Position numbers and translations under genes: made by a program. From Oscillospiraceae bacterium (GTDB lineage: Bacteria > Bacillota > Clostridia > Oscillospirales > Ruminococcaceae): DNA of 55,877 nt. This document shows positions 521 to 6,748 of this stretch, piece after piece. The notes under the pieces were generated by a model. The model searched no databases. It was given only the letters and a program-made list of their open reading frames with translations, and was not told where the DNA came from. Position 1 is the stretch's first letter; each line of letters starts with the position of its first letter. Where the stretch lies: NCBI GenBank assembly GCA_017547525.1, contig JAFYPL010000029.1:1-55877 (forward strand), read 5' to 3'.

Positions 521-3500
521 TCAAGGAAGCGTCACCACATCCAAATCTCTGATTGCTCTTGTGCAAGCAACATACAGCTGATTTTGAGTCATATCCTTGT
601 CGATCACAATAACCTTTTCAAATTCGAGACCCTTTGCTTGTGCAACCGTTAATACGTTATAACAATTCTTGTGGATTGCACCCTCTGCATTGTAATCGCG
701 GATGGCTGCATTTTCATCACCAAGAGCCAACTGTTCGAGAATAGATTCATCGGCAATGATTATTGCACCTCTGTCGTCATTTTCAAGTTTTCCCAAAGAG
801 AACAATTTACTTTCTTTGACGCTGCCAGGCAATCCGATTTTATACATATCCATTCCGAATCGCTTGTTCACATATGCGGTGATCTCGCTGGAGTTTCTGT
901 AGTTTTCCTTCAACTCGTATTCGCCATCGAAAGACATTATCCTGCGAAGCGTACTAATGTCGTTAATACCACTTGCGTTAATGCATTGGTTCACGTCACC
1001 ATACAGGTTAATGACTGCGTTGGAGAAATATTTTTGAATATCAGCCAACTCTTCAGCGGAGTAATCTTGGAACTCGTCCAAGAAAAGATAGAATCTACGC
1101 TTGTCCGGTTTGCCAAACTTTTCGATCAGTACATGCAGCATTTTTTGAAGTTGTTGCTTGTTGATTGTAATCTTCCGATCTTGCCTATCTCGTTCGATAT
1201 TCATTTGTCTGAGCAGCATATCAAAGACATAGTCATTGGAGCGATTAGCACTATTCAGCATTTGCAGCTCTTTTTCAATGTCGTTATATGCCCCAAAAAT
1301 CACAAACGGATTCACGTTTGCAACCTCGCAAGCTTGTTCAACCTTTTGCACGAACGCCAGCAGATTCTCAAAACGGCCAATGATTTCTTGGGCGTTTACA
1401 GTATTTAGTGAATCATCACCAACATAGTCAACAACATCAACCGTACTTTCCAACGCCTCTCGGATTCTATCAAGTTTCTTCAGCTGCTCAATTTCAGCAT
1501 CAACCAAGTAAGCCATATACTCAACTTCGCCATAAGTCAAGCCTTTGATGTCATCGATCATCTGCTTAATCTCTTTTGCGTCACGTTCATCAGACAAAAG
1601 GCTTACTGCTTGAACAAATCTGGTTACCGGCTGTTTGGTTTCTACATTCACAGAATCCATAGATGCAAAATCTAATTTGTCAACATGAGCCAAAACACGT
1701 TGGAAGCGTCTACGGATTTTAATTTCGTCGAATTCTTCTTTTTTGGAAGAACCTTTTCTCAGACATTCGAGCAGATACAACAACGCCAATTCTCGGTTTT
1801 CTTTGATCGGCAATTCGGTATCGACCTTGTTTGTGACATATTGAATGATGGTAGAAATATCATTGCCGGAGCAAGTAGCCAATTCCGTCATTGCCTTCAA
1901 ATAATAAGAATTTCCGTTCAGCAGATTTACTTCGCCAATGGTTGCTGCAGTTTGCTTTTTCTCATCCGCAAGCTTTTTTTGAGCGGCACTAACATAGAAG
2001 CGTTTCTGCAAAAGTTTTCCGCTGATAATATCCAAGCAGGAAGTAACCGCAGTATTCTCTACATTAGTGTTGGAATCGCAAATCTGAAATTCTTCCACTC
2101 TGTGGAACATACCGTTGGCATCAAAAATGTCACGAATGATATTCGTGTAGAAGCTTGCCGTAGAACGCTGATTGACTTTATCGATGTTCAGTATTTTTGC
2201 AAGTTCTTTGCTTTCTCTGCCCAAAATATCGGTCGGAGAAACAATAACCAAGCTATTTGTATCCACATCGGGATTGTTGAACAGTATGTATCTGATTCTG
2301 TGCAGCAGAATCATGGTTTTACCGGAACCGGCACAACCAAGTACAAGATATCCTTTTTCCATGTCTTGGGTGATAATCTCATACTGTTTTGCTTGAATTG
2401 ATTCAACAATATCGTGTATTGCTTTGGAAGCTCTATTGCGCTCAATAATCTCAATCAGCTTTTCATCTGCAACACTGGCATACTGATTTCCAGAACCACC
2501 GGACACCGTTCCTTTGCGATTATACAAATCGTGAAAATCAGAGAACATACCATTTTTGAGGGTAATGTCTCTTACGAAGTTGATGCCGAGCTGTTGATCA
2601 ACAGTATAAATCTTGTATTCGTAATAATAGGCTGCTCGCTTATCCGCCCAATCCACAACATAGCCAGGGATAGCATTTTTTCCAATATACAAATCCGGAT
2701 CGCCCTTGTAATCAACATGAGCGAAATATGCCTCTCTTGCAATTTTGCGAGCTGCAGCTTCAGCGTTAAGCCTCAACTGAGTTTCATCGTAACTGTCTTT
2801 CTCCGTTACCCAAAGGCCGCTTCGATCAATATAAGTTCTTTCTCGGAGACTAACCTTGCTGCGTTCTCTTGGGATCAATACAGAATCACGATAGTTGGAA
2901 TATAAAAACTGTCGTACTTTGGTGTGGTACAAAGACTCTCGCTCGTGATCAGCACCCATTCCGTCATCGTCAAGGAAAAAGAGATTCATAAAGTTCTCTA
3001 TGGTTGCTTCTGTACGGATGCCGGTTCCACGATGATTATCCATAGTGTAGCAGACTCGTGTTTTTCCACGGGCATCAATTCGACCACGCTCACCGGTTTT
3101 CTTGTTTTTGATACGCAGACCATATTGTATTTGTTCCGGGTTGGTAATGAGTGCTTTTCGCTTACCGTTAACATTCAAGCCGTTTTTGTCATAGCCTTCC
3201 CTGTCAAAGCCTAAGCGATTGTAACCAAGTTTGTCAAAACCATCCTTGTTATAGCCCAGTCTATCAAAGCCAGCTTCATTGTAACCGGAGCGATTATAGC
3301 CTTCACGATCATAGCCTTTTCGGTTGTAGCCGTACTGGTTATAACCATCTCGGTCATATCCATCCTTGTCAACACCATCAATGTCGAAGCCATCCCTATC
3401 GAAACCGGCTGCGTTCAATCCGTTGACATTATAACCCTCACGGTCGTAGCCGTTAGCGTTTAACCCTGTATACTTGTTAAAACCACGCTCGTCAAAATCG

Positions 3501-4642
3501 TCTTTATGGAACCCGTCTTGGTTAAAGCCTTCTCGATTAAAACCTGCCTTGTCATAGCCTGTCAGCCCATAACCCTCACGGTCTCGTCCGAACACATCAA
3601 AGCCGTCAAGATCATATCCATCTACTGCAAAGCCATACTTGTCAAAGCCGTCTTTGTTGTAACCATTGCGGTCAAAGCCCGCTCTGTTATATCCGTCAGA
3701 GTTATAGCCATCTTTATCATAGCCTTTTTCATCATAGCCTTGGCGATTAAAGCCTTTTCGATCATATCCGTCTTTGTTATAACCTTCTCGGTCATAACCC
3801 TCAAAATTGAAGCCAGCTTCATTGTAGCCCCATTTATCATATCCATTACGATCGAAGCCTTTGCTATTGAAACCGGCTCGGTCATATCCATCTACATCAA
3901 AGCCTTCGGCGTTGTAACCACTCTTATCAAAGCCAGATTTGTTAAAACCGCTTGCATCATAGCCATCGGCATTATATCCGTCTGCGTCATAGCCATCGAC
4001 ATTGTAGCCATTTTTGTCATAGCCGTCAGAATTAAAACCATCGGCATTGTACCCGTTAGCATCATACCCATTACGGTCATATCCATTACGGTCGAAACCG
4101 TCACGGCTGAAACCGTCTTTATCATACCCGGTTACATCATAGCCGTGAACATCAAATCCATAAACATCGAATCCCGCAGCATTAAAGCCTAACCGATTAT
4201 AGCCCTGTTTATCAAAACCATTTACATCGTAGCCGTCTTTGTCAAAACCATTTGCGTCAAAGCCTTGCTTGTTATAGCCCGAGCGATCAAATCCGTTCTT
4301 GTCAAAGCCATCAACGGTGTAACCATCCTTGCCGAAGCCATTTATATCAAAGCCTAACGCATTAAACCCATCTCGGTTATACCCGTTTTTATTGTATCCG
4401 TCATGGTCATATCCATCACGATCATAACCATCAGAGTTGAAACCGGTTTTGTCATAGCCATCTTTGTCAAAACCGTCTTTATTAAGACCGGTAAGCTTGT
4501 TAAAGCCTGCTGCGTTAAAACCACGCTTGTCATATCCGTCCTTGTCAAAACCCTGTTTGTTATAGCCGAATTTATCGAAACCAAGCTTGTTATAACCGTT
4601 TTCGTCAAAGCCGTTTTTATCATACTTCTTTCTCTCAAACAC
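521..4642 (-). CDS. HelD-like superfamily 1 helicase with ~97 N-terminal pentapeptide repeats
   Basis: Residue numbers count from the upstream ATG at 4,663. Residues 14-499 are a nearly unbroken tandem array with consensus G-[FY]-[DN]-x-x. About 100 residues of unknown fold follow, then a HelD-like body: AYFAHVDY, YIGKNAIPG and VVDWADKRAAYYYEY resemble the HelD region before Walker A. Superfamily 1 motifs follow: Walker A GCAGSGKT (about 775), Walker B FLFLDEFQD (about 1193), LYGDVNQC, LKENYRNS, QAKGLEFEKVIVID (about 1345) and LYVACTRA. HelD proteins remodel or recycle RNA polymerase; that role here is inference. I chose GTG 4,642 because GAGG at the stop codon of the preceding regulator gene gives it a site, implying coupling; ATG 4,663 lacks one. 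The repeat array is not PF00805, in which Asp/Asn precedes the central hydrophobic residue. Confidence 0.8.
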   Translation of the reverse strand: MFERKKYDKNGFDENGYNKLGFDKFGYNKQGFDKDGYDKRGFNAAGFNKLTGLNKDGFDKDGYDKTGFNSDGYDRDGYDHDGYNKNGYNRDGFNALGFDINGFGKDGYTVDGFDKNGFDRSGYNKQGFDANGFDKDGYDVNGFDKQGYNRLGFNAAGFDVYGFDVHGYDVTGYDKDGFSRDGFDRNGYDRNGYDANGYNADGFNSDGYDKNGYNVDGYDADGYNADGYDASGFNKSGFDKSGYNAEGFDVDGYDRAGFNSKGFDRNGYDKWGYNEAGFNFEGYDREGYNKDGYDRKGFNRQGYDEKGYDKDGYNSDGYNRAGFDRNGYNKDGFDKYGFAVDGYDLDGFDVFGRDREGYGLTGYDKAGFNREGFNQDGFHKDDFDERGFNKYTGLNANGYDREGYNVNGLNAAGFDRDGFDIDGVDKDGYDRDGYNQYGYNRKGYDREGYNRSGYNEAGFDRLGYNKDGFDKLGYNRLGFDREGYDKNGLNVNGKRKALITNPEQIQYGLRIKNKKTGERGRIDARGKTRVCYTMDNHRGTGIRTEATIENFMNLFFLDDDGMGADHERESLYHTKVRQFLYSNYRDSVLIPRERSKVSLRERTYIDRSGLWVTEKDSYDETQLRLNAEAAARKIAREAYFAHVDYKGDPDLYIGKNAIPGYVVDWADKRAAYYYEYKIYTVDQQLGINFVRDITLKNGMFSDFHDLYNRKGTVSGGSGNQYASVADEKLIEIIERNRASKAIHDIVESIQAKQYEIITQDMEKGYLVLGCAGSGKTMILLHRIRYILFNNPDVDTNSLVIVSPTDILGRESKELAKILNIDKVNQRSTASFYTNIIRDIFDANGMFHRVEEFQICDSNTNVENTAVTSCLDIISGKLLQKRFYVSAAQKKLADEKKQTAATIGEVNLLNGNSYYLKAMTELATCSGNDISTIIQYVTNKVDTELPIKENRELALLYLLECLRKGSSKKEEFDEIKIRRRFQRVLAHVDKLDFASMDSVNVETKQPVTRFVQAVSLLSDERDAKEIKQMIDDIKGLTYGEVEYMAYLVDAEIEQLKKLDRIREALESTVDVVDYVGDDSLNTVNAQEIIGRFENLLAFVQKVEQACEVANVNPFVIFGAYNDIEKELQMLNSANRSNDYVFDMLLRQMNIERDRQDRKITINKQQLQKMLHVLIEKFGKPDKRRFYLFLDEFQDYSAEELADIQKYFSNAVINLYGDVNQCINASGINDISTLRRIMSFDGEYELKENYRNSSEITAYVNKRFGMDMYKIGLPGSVKESKLFSLGKLENDDRGAIIIADESILEQLALGDENAAIRDYNAEGAIHKNCYNVLTVAQAKGLEFEKVIVIDKDMTQNQLYVACTRAIRDLDVVTLP
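3167..4624 (-). repeat. 15-bp coding minisatellite, about 97 degenerate units
   Basis: The DNA encodes the pentad G-[FY]-[DN]-x-x about 97 times in frame, with only two six-residue units (GFNKLT and GFNKYT, each followed by GLN). Synonymous codons vary between units, so protein sequence is conserved more than DNA. Third and fourth pentad positions favour K, R, D and N. Confidence 0.9.
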
Positions 4643-4649
4643 GGTTATA

Positions 4650-4862
4650 TCACCTCTTTTCATCCGGTATAAATTCTAAAATATCGTCTACACAGCAGTT
4701 CAATGCATAGCAGATCTTCTCGATGCTGTCCATCGACACATAATTGTCACGTTTCAGCCTTGTAATAATATTTGCACTAAAACCGCATTTTTCGGTCAAC
4801 TCGGCGTTAGTCATTCCTTTATCAATCAAAAGGTGGAATAATTTTTTGTAGCTTACTGCCAT
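4650..4862 (-). CDS. Small Cro/CI-type (XRE) transcriptional regulator
   Basis: A 70-residue protein that is essentially one helix-turn-helix domain: GMTNAELTEKCGFSANIITRLKR carries the two DNA-binding helices, and CYALNCCVDDILEFIPDE is the usual end of the stand-alone HTH_26/YozG-like group. ATG 4,862 has AAGGAGGG eight bases upstream. Its TGA overlaps the start region of the HelD-like gene, so the two are one translationally coupled unit, and it likely autoregulates that unit. A good promoter lies just upstream (4,893-4,921). Confidence 0.85.
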   Translation of the reverse strand: MAVSYKKLFHLLIDKGMTNAELTEKCGFSANIITRLKRDNYVSMDSIEKICYALNCCVDDILEFIPDEKR

Positions 4863-4983: not shown

Positions 4984-5247
4984 TTATTCCGCCATGACTT
5001 CTAACATCATTCGTGCGCCCAGCTTAAAGCCATTCTGAAAGATCAAACAGTCTGTATTGGTTTGATGCTCTCGCACACAATCGGTGTATTTCTCAAACAG
5101 TTCTTTCTGTTCATCCGTCATGGTATCTTTGAGTTTTTCTTCATTCCTACAAATCAGTTCCAGTAACTTCTTGTATTCTTTGTAAGAGGATGTGTCATAC
5201 TCGGTTGGCTCGATGTTGCCGTACCAAAATTCTTCAAGGATTCTCAT
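4984..5247 (-). CDS. DUF6809-type small protein of mobile elements
   Basis: An 87-residue acidic, mostly helical protein starting MRILEEFWYGNIEP and ending FKLGARMMLEVMAE. It matches the pattern of the DUF6809 family (function unknown), usually found beside tnpV. ATG 5,247 is preferred over an upstream in-frame ATG because AGGAGG lies eight bases before it and the ATGA overlap with the tnpV stop indicates coupling. No catalytic motif is visible. Confidence 0.7.
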   Translation of the reverse strand: MRILEEFWYGNIEPTEYDTSSYKEYKKLLELICRNEEKLKDTMTDEQKELFEKYTDCVREHQTNTDCLIFQNGFKLGARMMLEVMAE

Positions 5248-5609
5248 ACCGCATCCTCCTCGTAGATCATTTCGTGTAGAACGATTTCCTCGGCTCGGTT
5301 GCGGATGCTGTTCATAGCTCCAACCCATGCCATCTGATCGTACTGCTTCATGTGCTCTGTCACGCCTTCAGCAGCTTTCATTTGCTCAATGATAAGTTCA
5401 AGGCGGCTCTGCGCCTGCTCGTTCAAATCAGCCAGATACGTCCACAATTCGCCGCTAAGACACAGATCGTTGAAGCGAATGGGGTTATGCTCCTTGATAT
5501 AATCTCTGTGCATACGCCCCCAGCGACCAATAGATCTGGTTTCCTCTGGCAAGCGAATATCGGGAATATAGTAATCACCACAACGGATATAGTTCAGTTC
5601 CTGCATCAT
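5244..5609 (-). CDS. tnpV: TnpV, transposon-encoded protein
   Basis: 121 residues. YIRCGDYYIPDIRLPEE, IGRWGRMHRDYIKEH, SGELWTYLADLNEQAQ and the closing NSIRNRAEEIVLHEMIYEE are characteristic of TnpV of Tn4451-like elements. Its biochemical role is unknown and it is not needed for excision by the TnpX recombinase. An in-frame ATG at 5,621 exists, but TGGAGG lies between it and ATG 5,609, so 5,609 is taken as start. It overlaps the next gene by four bases. Confidence 0.88.
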   Translation of the reverse strand: MMQELNYIRCGDYYIPDIRLPEETRSIGRWGRMHRDYIKEHNPIRFNDLCLSGELWTYLADLNEQAQSRLELIIEQMKAAEGVTEHMKQYDQMAWVGAMNSIRNRAEEIVLHEMIYEEDAV

Positions 5610-5688: not shown

Positions 5689-5791
5689 AATTTTTCTTGT
5701 CGCACTCCTGTACGGCAGCTACCCTATGCCAGTAATGTTCTCATACTGTCTTATTGGAAGTTACCCCAGGGGCTGTTTTTATTTTATCTAC

Positions 5792-6748
5792 TTATTTTTC
5801 AGCATAATATTTGCACATATCTTTCATCATCTGTACAAATTTTGGCTGGTCAACATCCATAGCAATCCAGCAGTTTGGTTCTTTACCGCTTGTACCTTCA
5901 AGGTCAACAATAGTCTGGCCAACGTTCTTAACTTCTCTGTCTTCTACATGAATGTAGTATTTTTTGTAGTTAAGAATTTCAGGATCGATTTCGCCTGCCA
6001 CTGCAAGGGCATCGTGAATAACGTTGTTGTCTTCGCCACGGCCAAAGCTGTTTTCTTTGGAGAACTTAGACAGCTTGTTCAGGAAGTCAGAAGCTTTGTT
6101 TGTGCCTTTTGAAGTAACTTCAATCATTTCATCAAAGTCTTTTTCTTCAACTGCAGCTGCATGTGTAGCGTTGAGGCCAACCATGTAAACTTCCAGTTTT
6201 TCAAATACTTCTTTTGCAGCATGTGGGTCAACCCAGATATTAAATTCAGCGGTTTCACCTGTAGCTGAAACGTTACCGAATGTACCACCGCCCATAATAA
6301 CGAATTTTTTCAGGTATTTAGGCAGGTCAGGGTATTTACGCAGACATGTTGCAATATTTGTCAGAGGACCTACTGCAAACAGCACCAGTTCACCGTTGTG
6401 TTTAACAGCTTCTTCGTAAATAACGTCCCATGCTTCTTTCTGTTCTGGTTCTTTTGTTGGGGCTTCAAACTGAATACCGCCAACGCCGCCTTCGCCATGG
6501 GTTACGCTAATTTCGCGGAAATACTGGCGTACCAGTGGCACTGTTGCGCCGTAAGCAACTTTTGTGTTTTCCATTTCAAATGTTTCACGCAGGCACAGGC
6601 AGTTGTATCTTGTAAGTACTGCAGGCACGTTGCCTTCAACAGCTGTAAGTGCAACCAGTTCAAATTCTGGGTGAGAATTTGCAAGGGCAATAGCATAGCT
6701 GTCGTCTACGCCTGGGTCACAGTCGATAATAATAGGGATTTTGCGCAT
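5792..6748 (-). CDS. Inosine-uridine preferring nucleoside hydrolase
   Basis: 318 residues, the usual length. Hydrolyses the N-glycosidic bond of ribonucleosides to ribose and free base. The Ca2+-binding signature DCDPGVDD is at residues 9-16, VTHGEGGVGG supplies the loop equivalent to VHGxDGLGG, AEFNIWVDP the substrate-binding Asn, and IHDALAV the C-terminal Asp ligand. ATG 6,748 has GAGAGG about ten bases upstream. The DUF401 permease gene lies upstream in the same direction but is separated by a terminator and this gene has its own promoter. It borders the mobile element, and its own terminator appears split (see findings). Confidence 0.92.
   Translation of the reverse strand: MRKIPIIIDCDPGVDDSYAIALANSHPEFELVALTAVEGNVPAVLTRYNCLCLRETFEMENTKVAYGATVPLVRQYFREISVTHGEGGVGGIQFEAPTKEPEQKEAWDVIYEEAVKHNGELVLFAVGPLTNIATCLRKYPDLPKYLKKFVIMGGGTFGNVSATGETAEFNIWVDPHAAKEVFEKLEVYMVGLNATHAAAVEEKDFDEMIEVTSKGTNKASDFLNKLSKFSKENSFGRGEDNNVIHDALAVAGEIDPEILNYKKYYIHVEDREVKNVGQTIVDLEGTSGKEPNCWIAMDVDQPKFVQMMKDMCKYYAEK

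Follow-up and report, generated by a model that had tools for sequence, protein, structure and literature searches.

The locus

The stretch of DNA analysed here (the window) spans 55,877 nucleotides of a contig from a gut bacterium of the family Oscillospiraceae, and it carries on a mobile element a helicase gene with a long N-terminal array of five-residue repeats. The features are as follows.

521-4663, minus strand: helicase open reading frame, 1380 aa
3167..4642, minus strand: pentad array of the N-terminus, G-[FY]-[DN]-x-x (residues 1-492, counted from the GTG)
524..3166, minus strand: predicted HelD-like superfamily 1 (SF1) ATPase body, 881 aa
2642..2653, minus strand: DWAD, at the position of the HelD DWR motif
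2315..2338, minus strand: Walker A, GCAGSGKT
1064..1078, minus strand: motif II, DEFQD
617..634, minus strand: motif V, KGLEFE
4640..4657, minus strand: likely helicase start, GTG 4642-4640, with AGAGGTG at 4657-4651 overlapping the XRE stop (read directly)
4650..4862, minus strand: XRE/Cro-type regulator, 70 aa, HTH_26 (Pfam)
4984..5247, minus strand: DUF6809 gene (start by likeness to relatives)
5244..5609, minus strand: TnpV, transposon-encoded protein (PF14198, E 2.3e-45; start by likeness to relatives)
5726..5784, no strand assigned: right-hand end of the mobile element, with an open frame (..FSYCLIGSY..) similar to frames at the L187 and L188 ends

The long array-bearing reading frame described in the earlier note is thus present. 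The GTG at 4642 is likely a better start than the ATG at 4663, because AGAGGTG precedes it and because the resulting protein of 1373 aa, beginning MFERKKYDKNGFD, is similar at its N-terminus to the homologue from Faecalibacterium, which begins MPRILYDRFGFD. As to the translational coupling to a regulator that had been proposed, an HTH_26 gene does lie directly upstream, but with the GTG start the two genes do not overlap, the XRE stop and the helicase start being probably 7 nt apart.

Distribution of the fusion

How widespread is such a protein? A genome scan with the array returned 20 loci (L numbers denote loci, G numbers genomes), two of which are helicase fusions: one in Faecalibacterium prausnitzii APC923/61-1 (L048, taken as the contig of G171), with an array of 347 aa and a body 32% identical to that of the window, and one in an uncultured Anaeroplasma MAG of the Mycoplasmatota (L059), with an array of 222 aa and a body identity of 30%. 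The fusion occurs in one of the 16 genomes of the window's genus, namely its own, in one of the 31 genomes of the genus Faecalibacterium (G171), and in these same two among the 297 genomes of the family, counted over the 27 in which the helicase had a match of any kind. At the limits set, the helicase matches 6 of 391 class genomes and 3 of 398 phylum genomes, and apart from the window these are array-less relatives or a contig-end fragment; the family, class and phylum counts are lower bounds, two or three candidates having been scored per genome. The earlier note had named rarity of the array among relatives as counting against it, and in the family the fusion is indeed rare. Two weak array hits in family genomes proved to be unrelated GYPQQ repeats. 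Scans of viral contigs with body or HelD-like alignments gave nothing useful (one returned 80 loci, nearly all short matches around motif II, and was left unused), searches of plasmid and phage proteins gave partial matches only, and a search of plasmid DNA gave none. Searches of the open PMC literature listed no paper whose title or opening part of the abstract describes the fusion, the array or the slot discussed below.

The helicase body and its relationship to HelD

The best profile matches of the body are HelD_BACSU (81 bits, E 3.7e-23, curated cut-off 419), HelR and HelD_MYCSM, all far below the curated cut-offs of NCBIfam (81/419, 53/750, 46/1100 and 38/1051 bits for the HelD/HelR profiles), and the sequence hits in the PDB are headed by the HelD structures 6wvk (E 2.6e-18) and 6yxu. 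The possibility that the body is an ordinary UvrD, which the earlier note had allowed for, is not borne out. All three fusions retain intact SF1 motifs (GCAGSGKT, DE[FY]Q[DN], GDxxQ, NYR, KGLEFE and a final R-A), and the distance from Walker A to motif II is 409 in the window, 420 in L048 and 262 in L059. The DWR motif is called absolutely conserved in HelD in PMC8655204. At this site the window and L048 read DWA and L059 reads DWR, so that the tryptophan is kept; among the 31 rows compared, 29 read DWR. In a tree of these 31 rows the three array fusions group together as a single clade (100/98); with L069, L070 and L035-L038 they make up a branch of nine rows (100/100) that is distinct from the 22 other HelD-like rows; L059, L069 and L070 are long branches, and their placement is less certain. 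In the AlphaFold model the pLDDT of the body is mostly below 50, too low for a reading of the two arms of HelD, the secondary channel arm (pike) and the clamp arm (bumper).

We classify the body from these comparisons as HelD-like, a divergent branch outside HelD proper, because the scores are far under the cut-offs, two of the three fusions have DWA, and the branch is a separate one; the HelD-like SF1 assignment of the earlier note stands in this form, and membership of HelD itself does not. For the stretch between the array and the motor, a PcrA-Tudor reading is no more than a hint, PF21196 scoring 12.5 against 23.9 bits in L059 and giving nothing in the window, and a comparison with the PDB brought no convincing match; a Tudor-like domain may lie ahead of the motor, on the basis of that below-cut-off match in the relative L059 only. 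As a separate observation, HelD-like UvrD genes with DWRSP are found on Enterococcus faecium plasmids (L281:369-2519 and L282:4522-6657) that are named after or annotated with resistance genes.

The affinity to HelD raises the possibility that the protein recycles RNA polymerase as HelD does and is merely carried by a mobile element; it would then free stalled polymerase, with the array recruiting it. That HelD_BACSU and HelR are the best family matches, and that HelD heads the PDB hits, speaks for such a role; the shortfall against cut-offs of 419-1100 bits, the replacement of DWR by DWA in two of three fusions and the separate 100/100 branch all speak against it, and on balance we consider it unlikely.

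The transposon and its cargo slot

From the right end of the element the gene order is TnpV, DUF6809, XRE, helicase. In 8 of the 16 genus genomes, likeness to the chromosomal side, with its nucleoside hydrolase gene, ends at window positions 5782-5796; this stop alone is weak evidence of a boundary because 5792 is also where the nucleoside hydrolase gene ends. Sequence of the element side is found again at other sites, at 88-98% identity, in G691, G686, G685 and G101, and DNA of the right end matches 52 of the 297 family genomes, at least in part. Of the mobile element that had been claimed, the right side is accordingly supported, and the left side is cut off by the contig end. In related elements the place of the helicase is taken by other genes. 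Behind the XRE of L185 lies a DNA methyltransferase gene (TnpV 90%, DUF6809 94% and XRE 82% identical to the window); in L186, from the same genus, the slot holds a C5 methyltransferase, a type II restriction enzyme (REase_II) and an AriA/OLD-like ATPase (TnpV 92%, DUF6809 94%, XRE 42%); in L187 it holds HsdM and further genes that are RhuM- and HsdS-like by eye (TnpV 88%, XRE 75%, with DUF6809 not found at this locus). The window helicase stands directly behind a defence-type XRE in a TnpV element.

Relatives of the window XRE at E up to 1e-10 are present in 98 of the 297 family genomes. We assembled a near-XRE set of 45 loci: five of six related element ends (the sixth, L190, was set aside since its contig stops at the XRE), and 40 loci chosen by hand from the upper part of this list of relatives while the genes behind them were still unseen. 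The selection left out, within the upper range, five hits inside frames of 408-437 aa and five others without a rule. Identity of the XRE to that of the window across the set is 42-82%. The first gene encodes a DNA methyltransferase, a restriction-modification (R-M) protein, Mrr/GmrSD or BREX in 29 of the 45 loci (fragments among these calls are L223, L250 and L255), and with the next two genes or PADLOC taken into account, defence genes occur within three genes in 35 of 45, as follows.

First-gene defence loci (1): L185, L186, L187, L189, L223-L225, L227-L230, L232, L235, L236
First-gene defence loci (2): L238-L240, L242, L244, L245, L247, L249, L250, L252, L255, L256, L258-L260
Added to reach 35: L226, second gene Mod-like
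Added to reach 35: L246, HmaB
Added to reach 35: L251, PbeA
Added to reach 35: L253 and L254, PLD helicase resembling that of L072 (PADLOC: type IV restriction enzyme)
Added to reach 35: L257, SspB

The ten loci without a clear defence gene are L188, L221, L222, L231, L233, L234, L237, L241, L243 and L248; L237 was counted here on account of main domains that resemble primase, next to an HSDR_N stretch. In closeness to the window XRE, L221 and L222 rank second and third, and L222 starts with a short HsdM-like remnant (by eye). There are 44 first genes, L248 having none within 300 nt, and they were assigned by Pfam (30 genes), by PADLOC (44 genes, for which one gene's table and the commonest families were reported) and otherwise by phmmer. 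With phmmer, 32 of the 44 match one or another of 11 queries that came from the set itself; without these 11, matches were obtained for 21 of 33 (including L233, an M48 peptidase) versus 1 of 14 control genes.

The control set consisted of 20 loci with XRE identities of 32-39%, 14 of which have a same-strand gene within 300 nt, four of these being TnpV. Its only R-M first gene is at L264, where DUF6809 is also present; BrxP is the second gene of L267 (PADLOC on 10 control proteins), and the same second gene is found at L268 and L269, so that defence genes amount to 1/20 by first gene and 4/20 within two genes, against 29/45 and 35/45 in the near set. A PADLOC match to mad2 at L279 was not counted, the protein being a generic methyltransferase by length and place. 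In the XRE tree, which has few columns and many open forks, the XREs of the four positive controls fall within the large branch of the near set, the defence label needs 9 changes versus 20 in shuffles, and the window row sits at an open fork among both labels.

The earlier note saw in the XRE the helicase's own partner. This view does not hold: relatives of the XRE precede many unrelated defence operons, a tblastn search of the 21-kb stretch around the Faecalibacterium homologue found no such XRE, and this helicase and that XRE are coupled at the window locus only. More generally, an HTH_26 XRE gene often stands ahead of R-M loci of types I, II and III and of BREX, Hma, Ssp and Pbe loci (L187, L189, L224-L260 and others), and the gene could be usable as a marker for new defence operons, for example at L233/L234 (M48 peptidase), L243 and L241.

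The neighbours of the homologues vary. The Faecalibacterium copy has a DUF6061 gene on one side and, on the other, genes for Mob_Pre-like (below cut-off), VapE-like and Tn916-type integrase proteins, with a partial AbiD gene farther out. The array-less relative at L069/L071 lies some 1.4 kb before genes for DUF499, DUF3780 and a DUF1156-methyltransferase, and that at L070/L072 adjoins a PLD helicase that PADLOC scores as a type IV restriction enzyme. The array-less relative at L071:5679-8377 is split into a 147-aa ORF and an overlapping open frame of 760 aa.

Could the helicase, then, help the element's own transfer or maintenance rather than defence? Both the window and the Faecalibacterium genes are on or beside mobile elements, the latter among the mobilization- and integrase-type neighbours just named; but in related transposons this slot is often occupied by R-M or other defence genes, and the window and Faecalibacterium elements differ in type, which makes a helper role, in our estimate, quite improbable.

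The pentad array

The window array comprises 96 G[FYLVRW] units over about 490 residues; the spacing is exactly 5 in 90 of 95 cases, and 83 units have the strict form G[FY][DN]. Position 2 is Y in 48 and F in 41 of the 96 units, position 3 is D or N in 89, position 4 is mainly K/R/A/V and position 5 mainly D/N. The DNA 15-mers of the 87 G[FYL][DN] units are all distinct, and likeness between adjacent units (0.55) does not exceed that over all pairs (0.56), from which it follows that the array is old and, judging by these sequences, not a product of chance, a collapsed tandem repeat or an assembly artefact; the sequencing artefact feared in the earlier note is not in evidence, TRF reporting five rows in the window, each a short patch of the array.

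Two six-residue bumps interrupt the register of the window array, GFNKLT at 46 and GFNKYT at 387. Hexad bumps recur at the same two places in the window and L048, 7 units after the start of the array and 20 units before its end (the simulated chance of both matches under random placement is 0.003), and the stretch between them differs by 145 residues, that is, 29 whole pentads; the array of L059 has other irregularities. The variable positions 4 and 5 are conserved in register no better than out of register. The net charge of the array is -31 in the window and -27 and -7 in the other two fusions. An AlphaFold model (three sequences) gives block pLDDT of 61-79 over 200 array residues, with single-residue bridges, at an overall mean pLDDT of 40.8 and pTM of 0.28, which fits a regular fold but is no proof of one. 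The suggestion that D-x-[DN]-G might form calcium-binding loops finds no support, there being no RTX, EF-hand, dockerin or other calcium-repeat Pfam family among the hits to E 1, and no Pfam family reaches its cut-off on the window array. That the array is a neutral low-complexity extension devoid of function, to which the unremarkable positions 4 and 5 and the 29-pentad length difference might point, seems highly improbable in view of the reading frame kept at this large indel, the bumps matching from both ends in two homologues, and the single clade of fusions across two phyla.

Arrays of the same kind stand alone in Nitrosopumilus and Ichthyocystis loci and are fused to varied proteins elsewhere. 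The frames from Nitrosopumilus and Thaumarchaeota (L051-L058 and L062) are of 229-263 aa, almost all pentads, and start with MGLFD or MGFLD where complete. On a viral contig (L040:7821-16566) at least five neighbouring paralogues share an N-terminal domain of ~330 aa followed by a C-terminal pentad array. By eye, the array is fused to a HEPN/DUF4145-like stretch in L041:9797-10969 and to tandem AAA+ domains in L066, and is part of a lipoprotein with LRR-like repeats in L064:9881-11611. The pentad repeat appears to be reused from archaea to Clostridia on many proteins.

A possible role in defence

The reading that we favour, with moderate confidence, is that a small Clostridia transposon carries the helicase gene as defence cargo, directed against phage or mobile DNA, and that the gene encodes an XRE-governed, HelD-like motor with the array as an arm. 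The XRE ahead of the cargo slot would govern expression of the helicase; the HelD-like SF1 motor would hydrolyse ATP while engaged with nucleic acid or with complexes of transcription or replication, and would work by ATP-driven displacement on nucleic acid or polymerase complexes; and the array of 490 residues would serve as a long arm that keeps its register and either tethers the motor or recognises a target. The strongest pointer to function is the association with defence cargo, and the defence setting envisaged in the earlier note agrees with a slot that related elements share with R-M and other defence genes. The retention of the array over body identities of 30-32%, with matching bumps in the window and Faecalibacterium, also argues for the cargo reading, as do the SF1 motifs conserved among the fusions, the defence genes next to two array-less relatives (L071 and L072) and the partial AbiD gene near the Faecalibacterium copy. 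Against it, the functional evidence is all by association, and the 10 of 45 near-XRE loci without a clear defence gene include L221 and L222. PADLOC offers no family that spans the body well (GajB scores about 30 bits).

More tentatively, defence cargo of this kind might constitute a new single-gene anti-phage system, in which a HelD-derived motor would attack the transcription or replication complexes of phages, an arm in the form of a pentad solenoid would steer it, and transposons would shuttle it by way of the XRE-controlled slot, relatives of which also hold R-M, BREX, Hma and Ssp genes; this we regard as possible, though somewhat doubtful. What is new is the arrangement itself, a helicase behind TnpV, DUF6809 and XRE at the end of a transposon, in a slot often used for defence, and it makes this HelD-like branch a source of candidate defence motors.

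Comparison with known systems

Among known systems, Gabija GajB and other UvrD-like defence helicases have the SF1 motifs in common with the window protein, with a weak PADLOC score of about 30 bits, but the window has no GajA OLD-type nuclease between the helicase and the right end of the element, the left side lying beyond the contig. The decapeptide region of DotG/IcmE (PF25296; NF033900) likewise consists of a short G/D-rich repeat; as an identification it was rejected, NF033900 scoring 42/750 bits and PF25296 22.7 against a gathering threshold of 45, which likely reflects composition. Rfr pentapeptide repeat proteins of the MfpA/Qnr type have a period of five residues, the central one being aromatic or hydrophobic. 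The period is shared, whereas the pattern in the window is G-[FY]-[DN] and no Pfam pentapeptide family appears to E 1. Transposons of the Tn4451 type carry TnpV, and so does the end of the window element, for which neither a recombinase nor a left end was seen before the contig ends. HelD and HelR share with the window protein the SF1 UvrD-like core and a DW-containing N-terminal region and provide its best-matching profiles; from them it differs in scoring below their cut-offs, in the DWA of two of the three fusions, in its separate branch and in the pentad array at its N-terminus.
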